A stretch of DNA of 64,000 nt. Source: Mycolicibacterium flavescens (lineage in GTDB: Bacteria; Actinomycetota; Actinomycetes; Mycobacteriales; Mycobacteriaceae). Below the pieces are notes generated by a model, which was not told where the DNA came from, made no database searches, and saw only the letters and a program-made list of their open reading frames with translations. Below, piece by piece: positions 7,345 through 21,681 of this stretch (positions are counted from its first letter, which is position 1; the number at the start of each line of letters is the position of its first letter). The position numbers and the translations under genes are program-made. The DNA lies in assembly GCF_001722335.1 (NCBI RefSeq), contig NZ_MIHA01000003.1:124001-188000 (forward strand), read 5' to 3'.

Positions 7345-7443
7345 CTACTCCTTCGAGGCGCCCCTGGCCAAATTGGCCTGGGTGTAGACCTTGCCGTCCG
7401 GGCCCATGTAGGTGCCGGTGGCCGGGTCGTACTCCGCGGTCAC
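7345..7443 (-). pseudogene. C-terminal fragment of an MCE-family protein
   Basis: About 31 minus-strand codons (AEYDPATGTYMGPDGKVYTQ then ANLARGASKE, stop at 7345) match the C-terminal tail typical of Mce lipid-transporter proteins, which end in a YDPxTGxYxGPDG segment. Nothing upstream continues the protein. At 7443 the similarity stops abruptly and an unrelated plus-strand fragment begins, marking a deletion junction. It is part of the same mce remnant as the adjacent fragment. Confidence 0.55.
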
Positions 7444-7644
7444 GAGGCGAACGCCGCGACAGTGGCGAAGGTGATTGCCGAACGGCGACATCTGCCGACA
7501 CCCAACGACGAGTGCCGACTGCTGGCGGCCATCGGTATGCTGCTGGTCGAGCGCGTCCTTGATCGATGGGTGTCGGCACCGGGGCGCGCTCTCGACGATC
7601 TGATCCGCCAGGAGTTCGCGGCGCTGCCCGCGGTACTGAAGTAG
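7444..7644 (+). pseudogene. Fragment resembling the C-terminal half of a TetR-type regulator
   Basis: Sixty-six plus-strand codons (EANAATVAKVIAERR, RLLAAIGMLLVERVLDRW, DDLIRQEFAALPAVLK) form amphipathic helices like the ligand domain of a TetR-family repressor, with a natural stop at 7642-7644. No helix-turn-helix precedes it; the frame upstream is antisense to the mce remnant and carries no recognisable domain. I read it as a truncated regulator left at a deletion junction. The family assignment is tentative. Confidence 0.35.
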
Positions 7645-7710: not shown

Positions 7711-8169
7711 CTAGGTCGCGTCGTTCTCGTGCCGGATGGTGAATTCGGGTATGCGGTAACCACTCTCGCCGAGGTCCGCAATGCAGGCCTGCACTGGTTG
7801 GCCGATGCGGACGTCGGCCGGGTCGGCGTCGATAACCGCGTTGATACGCAGGCCTGGCTGTTCGTCGAGTTCGATGAGGCCGACGACGTAGGGCGGTATG
7901 CGGCCCGGCACCAGCGCCTGGCGTATCACGATGTAGCTGAAGATGGTGCCCCGGCCGCTGACTTCTTCGAAGTGCACCGGGCCGCCTGTATACCGGCTGC
8001 GTTCCAACGGGGGATGAATCCACTTGCCAGTGTCGTCGCAGCGACACAGCATCAACTTGCCCTGCTTGAGACCCTCCCAATACGGTGCCGAGTCGGGGTC
8101 CGGAACCGGGATCGGCGGCATCAGTTGCGGATTGGTGGCCGATGGCGATGCCGCGGCTGGTGATGTCAT
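7711..8169 (-). CDS. DUF35 OB-fold protein, partner of the thiolase-fold enzyme
   Basis: A 152-residue protein of the DUF35 (rubredoxin-like zinc ribbon plus OB fold) family. These proteins form complexes with thiolase-superfamily enzymes, as ChsH2 does with Ltp2 in steroid side-chain cleavage. The N-terminal helix DSAPYWEGLKQGKLMLCRCD and the OB-fold segments GTIFSYIVIRQ and YVVGLIELDEQPGLR are clear. The usual two CxxC pairs are reduced to a CRC, so the zinc site looks degenerate. Its start overlaps the stop of the thiolase-fold gene by ATGA, implying translational coupling and a stoichiometric complex. Confidence 0.85.
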   Translation of the reverse strand: MTSPAAASPSATNPQLMPPIPVPDPDSAPYWEGLKQGKLMLCRCDDTGKWIHPPLERSRYTGGPVHFEEVSGRGTIFSYIVIRQALVPGRIPPYVVGLIELDEQPGLRINAVIDADPADVRIGQPVQACIADLGESGYRIPEFTIRHENDAT

Positions 8170-9302
8170 GGCTTCTCCCTGCTGTAGACGTTGGCACCGC
8201 CGAAAGGACCGCCGCCGGCAGTGACGAGAGCGAGCTGCGCGTCGTCGACCTGGCGTACGCCGGCGGCGTGGCGCAGCTGCAAGGCGGCTTCGTAGTGGTG
8301 GTTGAGGCCGTGGATGTAGCCCTCGGATAACAGGCCGCCGTGTGGGTTCACCACCACGTCGCCGCCGTACGTCGCGCGGCCGGTGGAGAAGAACTTGCCC
8401 ACCTCGCCCTTCTCGCAGAAACCGAAGCCTTCCATGGTGGCCATCACCGTGTAGGTGAAGCAGTCGTACATGCAGGCCAGATCCATGTCGGCCGGCGTCA
8501 GACCCGTCTTCTCCCAGATTTTTGGACCCGCCGTGCGCGAATACATCTCGGTTGGGTCATCCCACTCCGTCCACCCCGCCCCGCCCTGGGAGTTCGACGA
8601 TCCGAGCAGCCACATGGGATCCTGCTTGGCGTTGCGCGCGATGTCCTCGCCGGTGATCAGGATAGCCACCGCCCCGTCGACCTCGGACGTGCAGTCCAGC
8701 ACCCGGAACGGCTCGTTGATCCAACGCGCGGCCAAGTAGTCGTCCATCGACAGCGGCTCACGACGCAGCGCATGCTCATTGGGGCCAGCATGCTTGCGCT
8801 GAGTGATCGCGATGTGACCGAGATCCTCACAGGTGGAGCCGTACTCGTGCTGATGGCGGCGGGCCCACATGGCGAACCACTGCGGCGGCACCATATAACC
8901 GGATGCGGTGTCGAACTGGTCGTGATGCGGCACCTGCATCGGACCCTCGACATGACCGAACCGGTAACCGGACCGGCCGTTGAGCGAGCGATATACCAGT
9001 ACCGCCTTGCACATCCCGGCTTCGATCACCGCTGCGGCAGTGGCGATCTGGTCGGCGACCAGGTTCCCACCGCCGTACATCGAGTTGGCCCATGCCAACT
9101 CGTCGATTCCGAGCGCCCACCCCACAAAGATCGGCTGCTCGGAGTCTCCTGCAGAGAACGTACAGATTCCGTCGATGTCGGCCGGTGTCAGCCCGGCGTC
9201 TTCGATGGCATCCCGGCAGGCGGCGACGGCCATGCCGCGGGTGGTGCGGCCGGACTTCTTCGAGTAGGTGGTGCGGCCGATTCCGATGACGGCACAGGTC
9301 AT
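8166..9302 (-). CDS. Thiolase-fold lipid-transfer protein (Ltp2-like aldolase candidate)
   Basis: A 378-residue thiolase-superfamily protein beginning CAVIGIGRTTYSKKSGRTT. The C-terminal catalytic region NPHGGLLSEGYIHGLNH is present, but no cysteine occurs where thiolases carry the nucleophile (the region reads ANSMYGGGNLVADQ). This matches the Ltp2/SCP2-thiolase branch, whose studied member is a retro-aldolase acting with a DUF35 protein. A GGAGAG site precedes the ATG. It lies between a two-domain acyl-CoA dehydrogenase gene upstream and the DUF35 gene downstream, so I infer it cleaves a beta-hydroxyacyl-CoA formed in that operon. Thiolysis is less likely. Confidence 0.83.
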   Translation of the reverse strand: MTCAVIGIGRTTYSKKSGRTTRGMAVAACRDAIEDAGLTPADIDGICTFSAGDSEQPIFVGWALGIDELAWANSMYGGGNLVADQIATAAAVIEAGMCKAVLVYRSLNGRSGYRFGHVEGPMQVPHHDQFDTASGYMVPPQWFAMWARRHQHEYGSTCEDLGHIAITQRKHAGPNEHALRREPLSMDDYLAARWINEPFRVLDCTSEVDGAVAILITGEDIARNAKQDPMWLLGSSNSQGGAGWTEWDDPTEMYSRTAGPKIWEKTGLTPADMDLACMYDCFTYTVMATMEGFGFCEKGEVGKFFSTGRATYGGDVVVNPHGGLLSEGYIHGLNHHYEAALQLRHAAGVRQVDDAQLALVTAGGGPFGGANVYSREKP

Positions 9303-9324: not shown

Positions 9325-11532
9325 TTAGGTAGTGGTCGGCGCGGGGGCTGGGTCCCTGGGCAGGCCCAGGATTCGTTCGGCGATCAGATTTCTGACAACC
9401 TCGGAGGTGCCGCCAGCGATGGTCAGGCAGCGACTGAACAGATAGTCGTGCACCACCGTTCCGGCGGCCTGCCGGCCCAGTGGATCGCCGTCGGCGGCCG
9501 GGTTGCCGTCTGGTCCGGTCAACAAGGCAGGCCCGGCAATGCGCAGTGCCAGTTCGGCGACGCGCTGGGCGTGCTCGGCGCCGAACAGCTTGGCGATGTT
9601 GCCTTCGATACCGGGTCCGGATTCGAACACCGCGCGGGCGGCTTGGCGCAGGTTCACCGTCGCCAGGGCGTACGACTCAATGAGCAGCGCGCCGACCTCG
9701 CCGGCCAGACGATGATCATCGCGGCGGTGACGAGCCAGCAGATCGAGCAGGTCCTCAGCGACCATGGTCACCGAACCGCCACCGATCGACACCCGCTCGT
9801 TGCCAAGCGCTGCCATCGCCACCCGCCAGCCGTTGTTGACCTCGCCGACCACGCGATCATCAGCGACGAACACCTCGTTGAAGAACACCTCGTTGAACAA
9901 GGCTTCCCCGGTGATCTCCCGCAACGGCCGGATCTCGACACCCGGTGCCGACATATCGATGATCATCGCCGTAATGCCTTTGTGCTTGGGCACATTCGTG
10001 TCGGTACGCACCGTGGCCAACCCGAGCTGGCAGTTCACCGCGTCGCTGGTCCACACTTTCTGACCGGTGAGGATCCAGCCGCCTTCGGTGGGGACGGCTC
10101 TCGTCGACACCGCAGCCGCGTCGGAGCCGGCACCCGGTTCACTGAACAGCTGGCACCATCGCACCTCGCCCTCCAAGCTGGGCCACATGAACCGGTCGAT
10201 CTGTTCGGGGCTGCCGTGCTGAAGCACCGTCGGCACCATCCACTCGCCGAGTCCCAGGCTGGGGCGCTCCACGCCGTCGAGCTCCTGCTCGATGATCAGC
10301 TGCTCGACGGATCCGGCAGCGCGGCCGTACGGTTTCGGCCAGTGCGGCACGAGATAGCCGGTGCGAGCCCACAGCTTCTGCTGCTCGGCGGGCTCGGTAT
10401 TGGCCAGCTCCGCCCGGAAGTCCTGGACCGCCTGCCGGTACTGTTCGGCTTCCGGTGGTAGGCCCAGCGATGTGCCTTGGCGTGCACCACCGATCTGAAG
10501 GGCTGCGACATCTTCGCGGAGCGCGTCCTCGCCGCCGGCGAACGCCAGCAGCACCGTAGCGCGCCGGACATAGAGGTGGGCGTCGTGTTCCCAGGTGTAC
10601 CCGATACCGCCGTGGATCTGGATGTTCTTCAATGCGACACGTTGGTACGCAGGCAACACGTGGCCCGCCGCCATCGTCACCGCCAACTCGGCCTCCGACG
10701 CCGGGGCTCGGGCCGCATCCCAGGTGGCGGACACGGCGAGCTCGGTGTCCACCAACATGTTGGCGCAATGATGCTTGATCGCCTGGAAGGACCCGATCGG
10801 TCGCCCGAACTGTTCACGGGTGGCCGCATAGATGCTGGCCATCTCGGTGCACGCGGCCAGCCCTCCGGTGGCTTCGGCGGCGGCCAGCAGGCGCATCGTC
10901 TGGACGGCCCCGCGGGCCGCTCCCGGGAAACGTTCCGCCACCGGCGCTTCGGTCAATGTGACGACGGTAATCGGACGCATCACCTGATCGACGGAGTCGC
11001 TGCGCGTCGTGCTCACCGCGTCGCCGGCCTCAATGAGCACCAGATCCCCCCCGACCGGGATGAGGAAGATGTCGGCGCGCCGCTCCCCTAGGGTCGCCAC
11101 GGCGTCGGCAACGACCGCCGCTCCGCTCATCGTGGCATTACTCGTCGTGCCGATCGCGGCCACCACGTCGCCCGACACCAGCTTCGGGAGCCAGCGTTGC
11201 CGTTGGTCCTCGGTGCCCACCTCGGCGATGACTGCAGAGGCGGCCACGGTCGGCAGGAACGGCCCCGCGATCGCGGCGCGGCCGAGTTGTTCGAGCACGA
11301 TGGTCAGCTCGGGAAGTCCATAGCCCTGGCCGTCGTAGCGTTCGTCGATGTGCAAACCCAGCCAACCGGTGGAAACGATCTCCTTCCACAAGGCGTCGTT
11401 CTGCCACCAGCGGCCGTCGTCGTCCGGGTCGAGCAGGATGCGGCGGGCCGCTGCGGTTCCCCCGCGACCGGTCACCAGTGATTTGGCGACGTCGGCGAGC
11501 TCACTGTGGTCTTCGGTTAACGCCAAGGGCAT
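9325..11532 (-). CDS. Two-domain (fused) acyl-CoA dehydrogenase
   Basis: A 735-residue protein made of two acyl-CoA dehydrogenase units in tandem. The first (about 1-345) ends with GGIGYTWEHDAHLYVRR. The second (about 365-735) contains WCQLFSEPGAGSDAA and ends with IAGGTSEVVRNLIAERILGL. Fused dehydrogenases of this size, such as FadE34 in steroid side-chain catabolism, replace the alpha2beta2 heterotetramer used for bulky ring-containing acyl-CoAs. This suggests a cyclic substrate here too. The gene is 22 bp upstream of the thiolase-fold gene on the same strand and is probably co-transcribed from the promoter before the EthD-like gene. It would use FAD with ETF as acceptor. Confidence 0.9.
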   Translation of the reverse strand: MPLALTEDHSELADVAKSLVTGRGGTAAARRILLDPDDDGRWWQNDALWKEIVSTGWLGLHIDERYDGQGYGLPELTIVLEQLGRAAIAGPFLPTVAASAVIAEVGTEDQRQRWLPKLVSGDVVAAIGTTSNATMSGAAVVADAVATLGERRADIFLIPVGGDLVLIEAGDAVSTTRSDSVDQVMRPITVVTLTEAPVAERFPGAARGAVQTMRLLAAAEATGGLAACTEMASIYAATREQFGRPIGSFQAIKHHCANMLVDTELAVSATWDAARAPASEAELAVTMAAGHVLPAYQRVALKNIQIHGGIGYTWEHDAHLYVRRATVLLAFAGGEDALREDVAALQIGGARQGTSLGLPPEAEQYRQAVQDFRAELANTEPAEQQKLWARTGYLVPHWPKPYGRAAGSVEQLIIEQELDGVERPSLGLGEWMVPTVLQHGSPEQIDRFMWPSLEGEVRWCQLFSEPGAGSDAAAVSTRAVPTEGGWILTGQKVWTSDAVNCQLGLATVRTDTNVPKHKGITAMIIDMSAPGVEIRPLREITGEALFNEVFFNEVFVADDRVVGEVNNGWRVAMAALGNERVSIGGGSVTMVAEDLLDLLARHRRDDHRLAGEVGALLIESYALATVNLRQAARAVFESGPGIEGNIAKLFGAEHAQRVAELALRIAGPALLTGPDGNPAADGDPLGRQAAGTVVHDYLFSRCLTIAGGTSEVVRNLIAERILGLPRDPAPAPTTT

Positions 11533-11629
11533 GATGCGGCCTCACTCATCGGGTCGAACGGGAAAGGTCATGGGCGTGGGTCCGAGCGATGCCGCCATCA
11601 AGCGTGTCGCGTTGCACGGGTCCCGGCCG

Positions 11630-11998
11630 TCACGTCGCCACCCGGCGTTCGCCGCGGGGGGTCCAGCCGGTCAACGACACGGTGCTCAGGTCCAAGGTCT
11701 CACCCAGCGTCAACGTTCCCGCCATGACCCGCTTGAGGAACTCTCCCATCACGGCCTCGGGCTCACGATCGAGTTCGTAGATCACCAGGTAGCGGTGCGT
11801 CGGTGGCGGCAGCTGTGCGGGGAGGTCCTCGTCGTCGGGCACCGTGATCTCGGACAGGTCGTAGCGCTGCGCCGCTACGACACCGGGAACCTCGAGCACC
11901 TCAGGCACGTGCGTGGAGTCGTACCACGAATTGAAGGCGTCGTCTTGACCTTCGATGGGGTTGCTCAACACGAGGAACAGGTTCTCCGCCACGGACAC
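11630..11998 (-). CDS. EthD-like dimeric alpha/beta-barrel protein
   Basis: A 122-residue protein with the pattern of small dimeric ferredoxin-fold proteins: an N-terminal strand ENLFLVLSNPIEGQ, the WYDSTHVPEVLEVPGVVAAQ helix and strand typical of EthD/muconolactone-isomerase-like proteins, and a final strand THRYLVIYELD. The function is not established; relatives accompany ring-modifying pathways. The GTG start at 11998 has GAAAGG upstream. It is the first gene after a promoter overlapped by a perfect inverted repeat (12030-12055) and probably leads the operon with the acyl-CoA dehydrogenase, thiolase-fold and DUF35 genes. Confidence 0.7.
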   Translation of the reverse strand: MSVAENLFLVLSNPIEGQDDAFNSWYDSTHVPEVLEVPGVVAAQRYDLSEITVPDDEDLPAQLPPPTHRYLVIYELDREPEAVMGEFLKRVMAGTLTLGETLDLSTVSLTGWTPRGERRVAT

Positions 11999-12029
11999 GC
12001 CTTTCGGGGAAAGGATTCGAGTGATGCGA

Positions 12030-12055
12030 GACTATGACAGACGACTGTCATAGTC
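12030..12055. promoter_or_regulatory. Operator 1: perfect 11-bp inverted repeat over the EthD-fadE operon promoter
   Basis: GACTATGACAG and CTGTCATAGTC are exact reverse complements separated by ACGA. On the minus strand TTGACT overlaps the first arm and a CATAGT/TAGTCT -10 overlaps the second, so a bound repressor would block RNA polymerase at the promoter of the gene starting at 11998. This is the best copy of a motif found four times up to 12802. Confidence 0.75.
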
Positions 12056-12395
12056 AATGTCCTGCCAAGCACTGGCCCTTCGATCGGGCCTGCTCGAGGT
12101 GCATCTGCCATGTTGACCGGGAATTCACGGGGGCATGCCAATCGCGAATGGACATCTCGGACGCGGCTGGCGAGGCCGTGCGCGCACTCACCCCAGCAAT
12201 TGCTGTGATGATTAATAATGTTGTTGGACAGCCATATTCGGCACCCGGAGCCACCACAGCGCGACAGCTCGCACCGCAGCGTTTCGGCAACAGCATGCCG
12301 CGACTTCCGAGTCCGAAATCCGACCGCACGGCAGGAGAATTCCAGCGCCGATGTCGGAGAGGGTAGGGCGCGAGGATGGCTACCGCGGTTCGAAT

Positions 12396-12420
12396 CGTGT
12401 GACACCAGACTGTCATAGTG
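12396..12420. promoter_or_regulatory. Operator 2: degenerate copy
   Basis: The right arm CTGTCATAGT is identical to operator 1. The left arm CGTGTGACAC keeps only the TGACA core, and the spacer is CAGA. No clear -35 accompanies it. Confidence 0.5.
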
Positions 12421-12543
12421 TCCGGGGAAAGCGTCGCGGGTGACGGACGTAGGGGAACGGCTCTCATGATCACACCGTCGAGGGACTTCATCCGGCAAGT
12501 TCTGGTCCTGTCGCCAGCCTTGCGCTACCCCGGCTCCCCCACA

Positions 12544-12567
12544 TGTATGACAGGCAACTGTCACCAC
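12544..12567. promoter_or_regulatory. Operator 3: degenerate copy
   Basis: The left arm TGTATGACAG and right arm CTGTCACCAC share the perfect core TGACAG-N4-CTGTCA with operator 1; the outer bases diverge on the right. Confidence 0.5.
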
Positions 12568-12774
12568 GTCCTGTTGACCACACGATGGATGCCTGCCGTG
12601 GCCGTTCGCTCACCGTCGATGTACAACAGTAGGGAGTTGGTCGCCATGACTGCACTGAACTGCTAATCGTCTATTTGCCGACAGCACAACGACTCCTACG
12701 GCCAGTCCCAATCGCCGTCGTATCGTTCAGTGCAGTGCCTGACTGGTTCGGGGCGAAATCATCGAGTCGCGCTC

Positions 12775-12802
12775 TTGACAGTTGACACTCGGCTGCCATA
12801 GT
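12775..12802 (+). promoter_or_regulatory. Promoter with operator 4 upstream of the mycofactocin-type SDR
   Basis: TTGACA (12775-12780) and CATAGT (12797-12802) are 16 bases apart, a good sigma-A-type promoter. The -10 lies in the arm CTGCCATAGT, one base different from operator 1, and the left arm keeps TGACA. The SDR start codon at 12942 is 140 bases downstream. Confidence 0.6.
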
Positions 12803-12941
12803 GTCGGTATCCCGCCGCGTGGGGCCGACGGCAGATGTCTATGAGTTGGTGGAGGTCCCCGGTGGCACGTCGGTGCCCGCCGCGGGTCTCACTCCCGGCG
12901 GGCGAGAGCGCGCAATACAACAGCGAAAAGGGTTGAGGGAC

Positions 12942-13757
12942 ATGGGAGTTTTGGACGGTCGGGTTGCCTTCATCACCGGCGCCGCGCGCGGGCAAGGACG
13001 CGCGCATGCGGTGCGGTTGGCCGCCGACGGCGCCGACATCATCGCCCTGGACATCTGCGCTGACATCGCGTCGATGGACTACCCCAACGCCACCCCTTCC
13101 GATTTGGACGAGACGGTCAAGCTGGTCGAGCATACGGGCCGACGCATCGTGGCACGCCAGGCCGATGTCCGCGACGGCGACGCCGTGGAGGCGGCATTGT
13201 CCGACGGCCTCGCCGAATTCGGGCGCCTGGACATCGTGATCGCCAACGCCGGCATCATCCGGCTCGGCAGCGGGGGTGACGACCGGCAGGTGTTCCGCGA
13301 CATCGTCGACGTCAACCTGATCGGGGTGTGGAACACCGTGCACGCCGCGATCCCCACCCTGATCGACGGTGGACGTGGCGGATCGATCGTCATCACCAGC
13401 TCCAGTGCCGGCCTCAAGGCCACCGGCACCGACCGGACCGGCGGTCAGGCCTACTCGGCTGCCAAGCGAGGACTCGTCGGCCTGATGCAGGTGTGGGCCA
13501 ACGATCTGGGCAAGCATTCCATTCGCGTGAACACCATCCATCCCACCGGAGTGGCGACCGGCATGGTCATGAACGAAGCGATGGGCAAACTGCTGGAGTC
13601 CGGGGACGTCGCGATGGAGGCCATGCAGAACGTCTTGCCGATTCCGGTGCTGGCGCCCGAAGACGTGGCGAACGCGGTGGCCTTCCTGGTCTCGGATGAA
13701 GCCAAGTTCATCACCGGAACGGCGTGGCCCCTTGATGCCGGCTTTGCGGTTCGTTGA
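12942..13757 (+). CDS. Mycofactocin-type SDR family oxidoreductase
   Basis: A 271-residue SDR closely similar to the one at 1901: GAARGQGRAHA cofactor signature at residues 13-23, IANAG, and catalytic YSAAK. The mycofactocin-linked subgroup is indicated by the GAARGQG signature and the acidic loop after the second strand (LDICADIASMDYP). The start at 12942 (MGVLDGRV) fits the family N-terminus and has purine-rich AAGGG/GAGGGA upstream; an earlier in-frame start at 12801 would add an unrelated leader. It is controlled by promoter/operator 4 and divergent from the EthD-fadE operon, so it probably oxidises an alcohol in the same pathway. Confidence 0.88.
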   Translation: MGVLDGRVAFITGAARGQGRAHAVRLAADGADIIALDICADIASMDYPNATPSDLDETVKLVEHTGRRIVARQADVRDGDAVEAALSDGLAEFGRLDIVIANAGIIRLGSGGDDRQVFRDIVDVNLIGVWNTVHAAIPTLIDGGRGGSIVITSSSAGLKATGTDRTGGQAYSAAKRGLVGLMQVWANDLGKHSIRVNTIHPTGVATGMVMNEAMGKLLESGDVAMEAMQNVLPIPVLAPEDVANAVAFLVSDEAKFITGTAWPLDAGFAVR

Positions 13758-13822
13758 TTGCTGCTGCGCGAATCACGGCGGGCCGTCATCGGGAGCGCCG
13801 TGTCAGCAACATGCATGCCGGC

Positions 13823-13925
13823 CAGGTTGACCTGCACTTCATCCCGCCCCGCCACCCGTGGCGCAACAGCTACGTCGAATCATTGAACTCCCGCATCCGC
13901 GACGAATGCCCGCTGGGATGGCATC
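13823..13925 (+). pseudogene. IS3-type transposase fragment (integrase core end)
   Basis: About 34 codons read DLHFIPPRHPWRNSYVESLN followed by SRIRDECPL, matching the late part of the DDE integrase domain of IS3/IS481-family transposases (F/YIPPGxPWxNGYxESFNxRxRDECL). This segment normally carries the last catalytic Glu, seen here in YVES. No start, no upstream catalytic Asp residues and no terminal repeats remain, and the reading frame degenerates after 13925. The stretch to 14160 otherwise holds nothing I can name. Confidence 0.65.
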
Positions 13926-14160
13926 GGCGAGTGAGGGCGTCTCGCGGGCACGGGTCAAAAACGCCAACTCCGGACCGACGTGGCGACCCGACCAGGCCGC
14001 GAAAAAATGCCTCTCTCTTCACCGAGCACTGGATCCGACAGGGGCGAGGTAGGGCACCGATGGGCATGAGGGGAAGCCTGCGCTCCACGCGTTCGCAATC
14101 ACCAATAACGGCCCGATCACCCCGACCGGCAACTAACCAATGCCAAGGTCGGGTCCGCGG

Positions 14161-14589
14161 TTAATCAGATAGCCTCGAGGGCAGTCGTTCACCGTCAGGC
14201 AGTACATCTCCGGTTTTCACAGTGATGTGCTTCGACAGACGCCAGCGGCCGTCCTCTCGGCGCAGGTGATCGTGATATCGCCCCACAAACGACATCTCTG
14301 CCGGCCCGTCCTCCGGTATCAGTGACACAATCACGTCGCTCCAGGCTCTAGCCTCGTTCTCGTAGATGTCGATTACCGGCGCGTAGACGAAATGTTTGAT
14401 CCTGTGGGGAGTGGAGGGTTGCGTTGCAGGCAACCCTTCCATGATCGCCTTTCGCCCGCGAAACGTCTGTCCCGCCCATGGCAGCACACCGTCATCACAG
14501 AACAACGCCGCAAGGTCGGCCCATCGACGTTCGTCGAGCAGCTGAGCGTGCAAAGCAATTACGCGCCTGATCTCTTCGTAATCGTCCAC
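14161..14589 (-). CDS. SnoaL-like/NTF2-fold protein
   Basis: A 142-residue protein with the cone-shaped NTF2/SnoaL fold pattern. The N-terminal helices EEIRRVIALHAQLLDERRW are followed by ADLAALFCDDGVLPWAGQTF, then beta strands ending MSFVGRYHDHLRREDGRWRL. Members act as dehydratases, isomerases or ligand-binding domains on polyketide- or steroid-like molecules; no catalytic assignment is possible here. It sits between an IS3 remnant and an IstA remnant, so it may have arrived with, or survived among, mobile elements. It looks intact. Confidence 0.75.
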   Translation of the reverse strand: MDDYEEIRRVIALHAQLLDERRWADLAALFCDDGVLPWAGQTFRGRKAIMEGLPATQPSTPHRIKHFVYAPVIDIYENEARAWSDVIVSLIPEDGPAEMSFVGRYHDHLRREDGRWRLSKHITVKTGDVLPDGERLPSRLSD

Positions 14590-20862: not shown

Positions 20863-20882
20863 TCACTGACAGATGACAGTGA
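20863..20882. promoter_or_regulatory. Inverted repeat between the membrane operon and the TetR gene
   Basis: TCACTG and CAGTGA arms are separated by 8 bases. The repeat lies about 58 bases before the operon start at 20805 and 160 before the TetR pseudogene. Size and position suit a TetR-type operator; the arms are short, so this is suggestive only. Confidence 0.4.
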
Positions 20883-21042: not shown

Positions 21043-21681
21043 ATGGGGCGCGTGCCAGAGAGTGCGACGCGCCGCGAAGCTCAGCGGCGAAACACCCGTG
21101 CGCGGCTGCTCGACGCCGCCATTGTGGAGTTCCAGCGTTCCGGCACCAGCGCGGCCGACATCAACGCCATCGTGAAGGCGGCGGGGGTCGCGCGCAGCAC
21201 TTTCTACTTTCATTTCCCCACCAAGGAACATGTGCTGCTCGAACTCATCCGACGAGACGAGATGCGCCTGGCGAACGAGCTGAGCAGGTTCCTCGACACC
21301 CGCCGCGACCTGCCCGCGGTGTTGACACGGATCGTCGAGCTGGTCCTGGAACTCGAAACCCGTTGAGGATCAGCGCTGTTTCACGACGTCATCAGTCTGT
21401 ACTTCTCGCCCACCCGGCCCGAACGGGAACAGTGGACCAACCATCCGCTTTTCGTGCTGCTCGCCGCTGAGATCGAGCGCCTGCGCGTCCGCGGCGAACT
21501 CTATGACGACGTCGACTCCTATCACAGCGCGGCGTTCTTCCTCCTCGGCGTGTACGCCCTGCTAACAACCGTCGGCGAGGCCCGGTCCGAACGCGACGTG
21601 GCGCTGCGCAAGTTCGTCACCAGCACCCTGCGCAGCCTGCTTCGTGTGCCCTCGCCCGCCCCGGCCTCCGCGGACGGGTGA
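21043..21681 (+). pseudogene. TetR-family regulator interrupted by an in-frame TGA
   Basis: From 21043 a typical TetR N-terminus is encoded: RARLLDAAIVEFQRSGTSAA, then the helix-turn-helix AIVKAAGVARSTFYFHFPTK. After ELETR a TGA at 21364-21366 ends the frame at 107 residues, but the identical frame reopens at once (GSALFHDVISLYF to PASADG) and supplies the rest of a ligand-binding domain to 21681, for 212 residues in all. CGA to TGA is a likely single change. It is divergent from the NorE/NorF-like operon, which it probably regulated. Truncated to the DNA-binding half, it is presumably non-functional or unregulated. Confidence 0.8.

Follow-up and report, generated by a model that had tools for sequence, protein, structure and literature searches.

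Four copies of one inverted repeat, set between divergent catabolic genes in a mycobacterial genome that probably serve the breakdown of a lipid-like compound, are most likely the operators of an MftR-like TetR repressor, termed A1, and of its sister TetR_B, and the locus is probably controlled in trans by an intact A1 from another part of the chromosome. The stretch of DNA analysed, referred to below as the window, is 64,000 nucleotides long, and the repeats lie in the spacer between the start codon of an EthD-like gene (11998, minus strand) and that of an SDR gene (12942, plus strand). We infer the binding of A1, the repression and the ligand from sequence. The predicted repressor dimer, sitting on operator 1 or operator 4, would cover the -10 region at the divergent promoters, thereby blocking RNA polymerase, and an inducer, most likely the CoA thioester of the compound being degraded, would release it.

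The four copies start at 12031, 12396, 12544 and 12779 and share the consensus ACTATGACAGTNNACTGTCATAGT. The perfect repeat that an earlier note on this DNA had placed over the operon promoter is exact, GACTATGACAG-ACGA-CTGTCATAGTC, spanning 12030-12055. The core TGACAN6TGTCA is likewise exact at 12035, 12400 and 12548 and carries one mismatch at 12783, and at one mismatch or fewer there is no other such place within the 64 kb. Allowing two mismatches yields 18 matches in the window where 17.6 are expected, and therefore only the four strong sites are meaningful; one two-mismatch site, at 20867, was ruled out by its score (-2.3) against an operator matrix (PWM). This matrix has 24 columns and rests on 86 distinct sites that came out of scanning 37 other loci. 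Neither the window nor the orthologous four-operator spacers belonged to this training set; three training loci (L032, L033 and L036) extend into the flanks of three orthologue clusters and end before the spacer. Its consensus is TGACAGTNNACTGTCA, with a spacer one base longer than that of the MftR operator. The four operators take PWM ranks 1-4 of the window, namely operator 1 (12031-12054) at 37.2, operator 2 (12396-12419) at 21.9, operator 3 (12544-12567) at 21.2 and operator 4 (12779-12802) at 14.7. The fifth match, at 14477, scores 6.85, lies inside the reading frame 14161-14589 and is taken as chance. Across 100 first-order Markov random windows the PWM maximum was 2.9 on average and 16.1 at its highest, and matches at 14.7 or above arose at a mean of 0.01 per window. 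The original observation of four repeat copies in the divergent spacer is right, and unusually clean. No operator was found before the window's crotonase/SDR pair, its P450 or its isochorismatase gene in the three stretches scored, where the best PWM was -16.0. A different element, a perfect 12-bp inverted repeat (ACTGCACTGAAC / GTTCAGTGCAGT; 12649-12660 and 12725-12736, 64 nt apart), lies between operators 3 and 4 and has no explanation from the repressor motif.

Operators 1 and 4 each carry a CATAGT -10 box, that of operator 1 on the minus strand. At operator 4 the predicted SDR promoter (12775-12802, plus strand) consists of TTGACA (12775-12780) and CATAGT (12797-12802) separated by 16 bp, with 10 of 12 hexamer matches to the sigma-70 type; it is the sole promoter-like match in 11900-13000, where shuffling gives an expectation of 0.3, and the promoter proposed for this site in the earlier note is upheld. 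The scan sought TTGACA and TATAAT-like hexamers with spacers of 16-18 bp and for that reason did not return the pair at operator 1, where the spacer is 15 bp. Read from the sequence, TTGACT (-35, 12057-12052) and CATAGT (-10, 12036-12031) here form the predicted promoter of the EthD-like/FadE/thiolase/DUF35 operon (12031-12057, minus strand). The TTGAC outside operator 4, the TTGACT outside operator 1 and CATANT at operator 1 are kept in 7/7 aligned spacer sequences, a set that includes two near-copies of the window (G001 and G164) and one pair that nearly copy each other (G266 and G268). The positions 11998 and 12942, formerly offered as transcription starts, are start codons; from the -10 boxes, transcription would be expected to begin at about 12023-12025 on the minus strand and 12808-12810 on the plus strand. 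The overlap of these two operators with -10 boxes gives a geometry that would fit simple steric repression.

The predicted operon begins with a small EthD-like protein of 122 aa (11630-11998, minus strand), for which the label EthD used earlier proves too strong, as it reaches 13.8 bits (E 0.14) with the Pfam model (PF07110) against a gathering score of 22. The genes beyond it on the same strand encode a double acyl-CoA dehydrogenase of 735 aa (9325-11532; Pfam Acyl-CoA_dh_N and _1 in two stretches each, _M in one), whose best PDB sequence is 6wy9 (Tcur3483), an SCP2-type thiolase / lipid-transfer protein (8166-9302; Pfam Thiolase_C_1), whose best PDB sequence is 6ok1 (Lipid-transfer protein), and a DUF35 / ChsH2-like OB-fold and zinc-ribbon protein (7711-8169; Pfam OB_ChsH2_C and zf-ChsH2). 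On the plus strand the SDR (12942-13757) is of the mycofactocin-coupled kind, as had been proposed, scoring 362.8 bits with TIGR03971 against a cut-off of 300. The proteins behind 6ok1 and 6wy9 we take to be steroid side-chain enzymes. Because of these two PDB neighbours and the ChsH2 domains of the DUF35 protein, our guess is that the pathway may shorten the side chain of a steroid-like or terpenoid CoA ester. When plasmid records were searched with 11600-13800, the matches listed (20 of 45 records) all fell over the SDR part only. Directly past the SDR gene, the reading frame 13754-14164 contains a stretch, HPWRNSYVESLNSRIRDECP, which is presumably transposase-like and may be a trace of a locus-remodelling event.

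Of 396 genomes, with one or two candidates scored in each, only G001 and G164 (98% each) are listed with a match along the full length of the window locus (11640-13750). Four further relatives, G266 (M. rhizamassiliense), G268 (M. numidiamassiliense), G021 and G298 (M. vulneris), have the same genes, the SDR being 96% and the EthD-like protein 90-93% identical. In these, TetR_B sits between operators 2 and 3, and A1 is intact, lying past the operon on the opposite strand; operator 2 is there the operator of the TetR_B gene and operator 3 follows immediately after the TetR_B stop. The four operators stand in the same order in all seven sequences. In the spacer alignment TetR_B is missing from the window, G001 and G164 save for some 60 bp of its 3' end (12468-12527, plus strand; 76% over 63 aligned columns to TetR_B of G298, E 4e-5), and a tblastn search for a TetR gene in the SDR-EthD spacer gave matches only at E 0.15 or worse. 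The truncated TetR-like fragment reported earlier at 7444-7644 is real and extends over 7435-7641 (plus strand), adjoining the DUF35 gene. It is the stump of the cognate regulator A1, comprising the C-terminal 69 residues without the helix-turn-helix, and matches residues 128-196 of an intact A1 of G001 at 78% (E 8e-32); its identity to TetR_B is 50%. G001 and G164 bear a similar stump. The statement that no intact regulator lies nearby accordingly holds for the operon-SDR spacer and the stump, and for this kind of regulator. Further along the window, at 21067-21477, there is a TetR-like helix-turn-helix match (about 40% to A1) that has no listed frame of at least 120 aa and may be a broken or short regulator gene.

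The layout with both regulators appears to be ancestral, with TetR_B between operators 2 and 3 and A1 past the operon. In the lineage of the window both local repressors would then have been lost, TetR_B through deletion of nearly all of its gene and A1 by trimming to the ligand-binding end, with the operators persisting. Since both local repressor genes are gone or shortened, a sister repressor encoded elsewhere most likely acts here. In G001 and G164 the closest intact A1 lies about 125 kb from the orthologous locus, G001 having two such genes (2006438 and 3177152) and G164 a single one (5955485); by extension from these two relatives, the window's own genome probably carries an intact A1 that now controls the locus.

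A1 is a conserved TetR protein of 196 aa (195 in G014) found near some motif sites in G001, G014 and G021, the other three copies being 83-89% identical to the first. As a 20-bp pattern with up to one mismatch the motif is present in 14/61 relatives, and G001, the nearest genome compared, has 11 motif places against 1 for a reversed control. The earlier note had held that a random density genome-wide would speak against its reading; in G001, where density was checked, that objection fails. Of 396 genomes surveyed in the genus, 37 have A1 (at E 1e-30 or better, 8 candidates scored per genome) and 43 have the motif (TRTGACAGN4CTGTCAYA, up to one mismatch). The motif occurs in 36 of the 37 A1-positive genomes against 7 of the 359 A1-negative ones, once in each of the seven (Fisher p 7e-43, a statistic that ignores the relatedness of the genomes); the reversed control pattern matches 2/37 and 24/359, respectively. 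One genome, G347, has an A1 relative (E 1e-48) and no motif. Scores were obtained for six of the seven A1-negative sites (all but that of G136), four falling at 12.4-17.0, with G215 at 22.3 and G080 at 33.7, and at least G080, with so strong a site and no detected A1, is therefore a real exception. Its site (L145:1499-1522) lies between homologues of the window's crotonase (91%) and SDR1 (89%), a pair that in the window has no site, and another regulator may read the motif in G080. The proposal that one repressor serves both directions is supported at the level of one repressor family, by the co-occurrence of operator and regulator and by the position of the operators over the -10 region.

The association appears to reach beyond the mycobacteria. 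Scanning GTDB contigs with peptides gave 388 places with a TetR relative, of which the best 80 were kept, each locus extending up to 10 kb either side of the TetR gene. A PWM score of at least 20 was reached in 28/28 mycobacterial A1 loci (all of which the training scan had included), in 11/11 non-training loci at 52-59% identity (Williamsia, Pseudonocardia, Frankia, Actinocorallia and Modestobacter), in 1/6 TetR loci at 39-46% identity and in 3/35 more distant ones; none of the shuffled loci (n=80) attained 12. The identity of the recognition helix among these loci is partly a product of selection, as PRTFFRYF served as the search pattern. The 54 loci scanned hold 168 distinct sites with PWM >12. 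Counting genes up to 250 bp downstream, with each site allowed to count for up to two, these sites precede genes for LLM (44), EthD-like (40), TetR_A1 (34), PEP-utiliser-like (27), AveC-like (25), SDR (10) and APH-like (10) proteins, among others, and 18 of the 168 have no query-set gene downstream. The median distance from site to gene is 41 bp for the EthD-like start and 101 bp for TetR_A1. On these patterns the operator motif can be taken to mark a regulon that follows one regulator, A1. Near the A1 clusters of G014 and G021 is a protein of 446 aa whose single chain carries two TetR-like DNA-binding domains (L022:6287-7627 and L024:17598-18938), 85% alike between the genomes.

With both resident regulators gone, the operators could instead be relics, the operon and SDR of the window's strain having been expressed without this control since the local repressors were lost. 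This we regard as unlikely, even though operator 2 is weaker in the window, G001 and G164 (PWM 17.8-21.9) than in relatives keeping TetR_B (29.7-37.0). Nor do the operators show clear constraint among the three, 3/96 operator bases differing from the window in G001 and 2/96 in G164 while the whole spacer alignment differs by 3.0% and 4.8%, a comparison that proves nothing. Operator 1, however, stands in the same place in G298, G266, G268 and G021 and is no weaker in the window, G001 and G164 (35.1-37.2) than in relatives with regulators (32.3-36.4), and G001 and G164 keep, besides an intact A1, further sites at other loci in the stretches examined. Homologues of operators 3 and 4 score 13.2-22.9 and 10.7-22.1 in relatives. 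When conservation was measured as the share of cells keeping the window base in G298, G266 and G021, operators 1 to 4 gave 83%, 64%, 58% and 74%, against a mean of 48%, a 95th percentile of 72% and a maximum of 85% for 24-bp windows of the remaining spacer. Operators 1 and 4, at the predicted promoters of genes still present, therefore stand out, and operators 2 and 3 fall within the null. Selection acting on the remaining promoters only would fit both the scores and the conservation of the four sites.

Cooperative binding, or DNA looping across the four sites as a single array, had been suggested in the earlier note and would be in keeping with their joint presence in the window and all six relatives; we nevertheless consider it very unlikely. 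The distance between sites 1 and 2 is 365 bp in the window and 353, 377 and 374 bp in three other lineages, and is not locked to the helix turn, while sites 2 and 3 are 722-724 bp apart in three relatives against 148 bp in the window, and such spacing without phase lock argues against cooperation among the sites. Operators 1, 2 and 4 of the relatives each adjoin a gene start of their own, with operator 2 lying 93-95 bp upstream of TetR_B (three distinct sites counted), and at other loci a single site lies near each of several EthD-like genes (e.g., L017 and L195). The earlier interpretation holds for the shared repressor and the missing regulator and is unsupported for cooperativity.

Control by A1 in trans remains our preferred reading, and on balance we favour a broader one: that the locus was rewired from local control by two resident repressors, since lost, to control by a paralogue more than 100 kb away, and that A1 is an undescribed shared regulator of a dispersed accessory regulon across actinobacterial genera, taking in EthD-like/FadE/thiolase, P450, F420-type LLM, AveC-like, PEP-utiliser-like and mycofactocin SDR genes. 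Literature searches listed papers on other TetR regulators, such as MftR, KstR and bkaR, and as far as title and abstract opening show, none of the papers listed describes an A1-type regulator, operator or regulon; on the same measure, the motif letters CTGTCATA sought in print together with Mycobacterium led to no mycobacterial operator. As a kind, the system is known and ordinary; the regulator, the operator and the regulon were not found in the literature searched. An orphan operator array would in this way gain a named regulator, and scattered catabolic loci of environmental and opportunistic mycobacteria would be joined into one regulon. The pathway also becomes testable, since knowing what releases A1 would indicate the substrate. 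The locus would be a clear example of TetR circuits moving from local control to control in trans, a shift that escapes any prediction method in which repressors are paired with their neighbours only.

Among known systems the nearest is MftR. The TetR_N helix-turn-helix (PF00440) scores 59.6 and 60.4 bits in A1 copies and 64.7 in TetR_B against a gathering score of 24, and both proteins pass the cut-off of TetR_C_14, the C-terminal Pfam domain of MftR. Their best NCBIfam model is MftR (TIGR03968), with 73.0 bits for A1 and 80.6 for TetR_B where the cut-off is 224.9, and they are accordingly best described as MftR-like TetR proteins rather than MftR. A1 and TetR_B differ at one position of the recognition helix and are 72% identical in the helix-turn-helix against 52-54% in the C-terminal domain, which would fit one operator code read with different ligands. 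MftR is the repressor of mycofactocin biosynthesis, responds to long-chain acyl-CoA and binds T-N2-GGCA-N5-TGCC-N2-A (PMC8728441); by analogy, an acyl-CoA inducer may be guessed for A1 as well. The two systems are alike in family, in the TetR_C_14 domain and in a palindromic operator with a related half-site, placed in the case of A1 and TetR_B near their own genes and targets (PWM at least 20 in 28/28 and 11/11 loci), and the A1 cluster shares the link to mycofactocin-coupled enzymes. That related half-site, the choice of best model and the strong site of G080 might be held to indicate that another regulator, such as MftR itself, reads the sites, to which we give very little credence, as A1 and TetR_B fall far under the MftR cut-off, the motif tracks A1 across genomes and the A1 sites, TGACA-N6-TGTCA, have a spacer one base longer than the GGCA-N5-TGCC of the MftR operator. 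A1 sites, moreover, precede catabolic genes at several loci, a further difference from MftR.

The adjoining SCP2-thiolase and DUF35 genes resemble the Ltp2-ChsH2 retro-aldolase of cholesterol degradation, which we take to be the system behind 6ok1, whereas the DUF35 protein here stands alone. Against the KstR model (NF033703; cut-off 280 bits) A1 scores 24.4 and TetR_B 24.5, and the KstR operator is presumably unlike that of A1. KstR and KstR2 of steroid catabolism are nonetheless comparable, being TetR repressors with short palindromes before several lipid-degradation operons (PMC4482099). The thiolase and acyl-CoA dehydrogenase of the window resemble steroid side-chain enzymes by their PDB sequence matches (6ok1 and 6wy9), but A1, present in 37/396 genomes, is an accessory regulator and not a core one.
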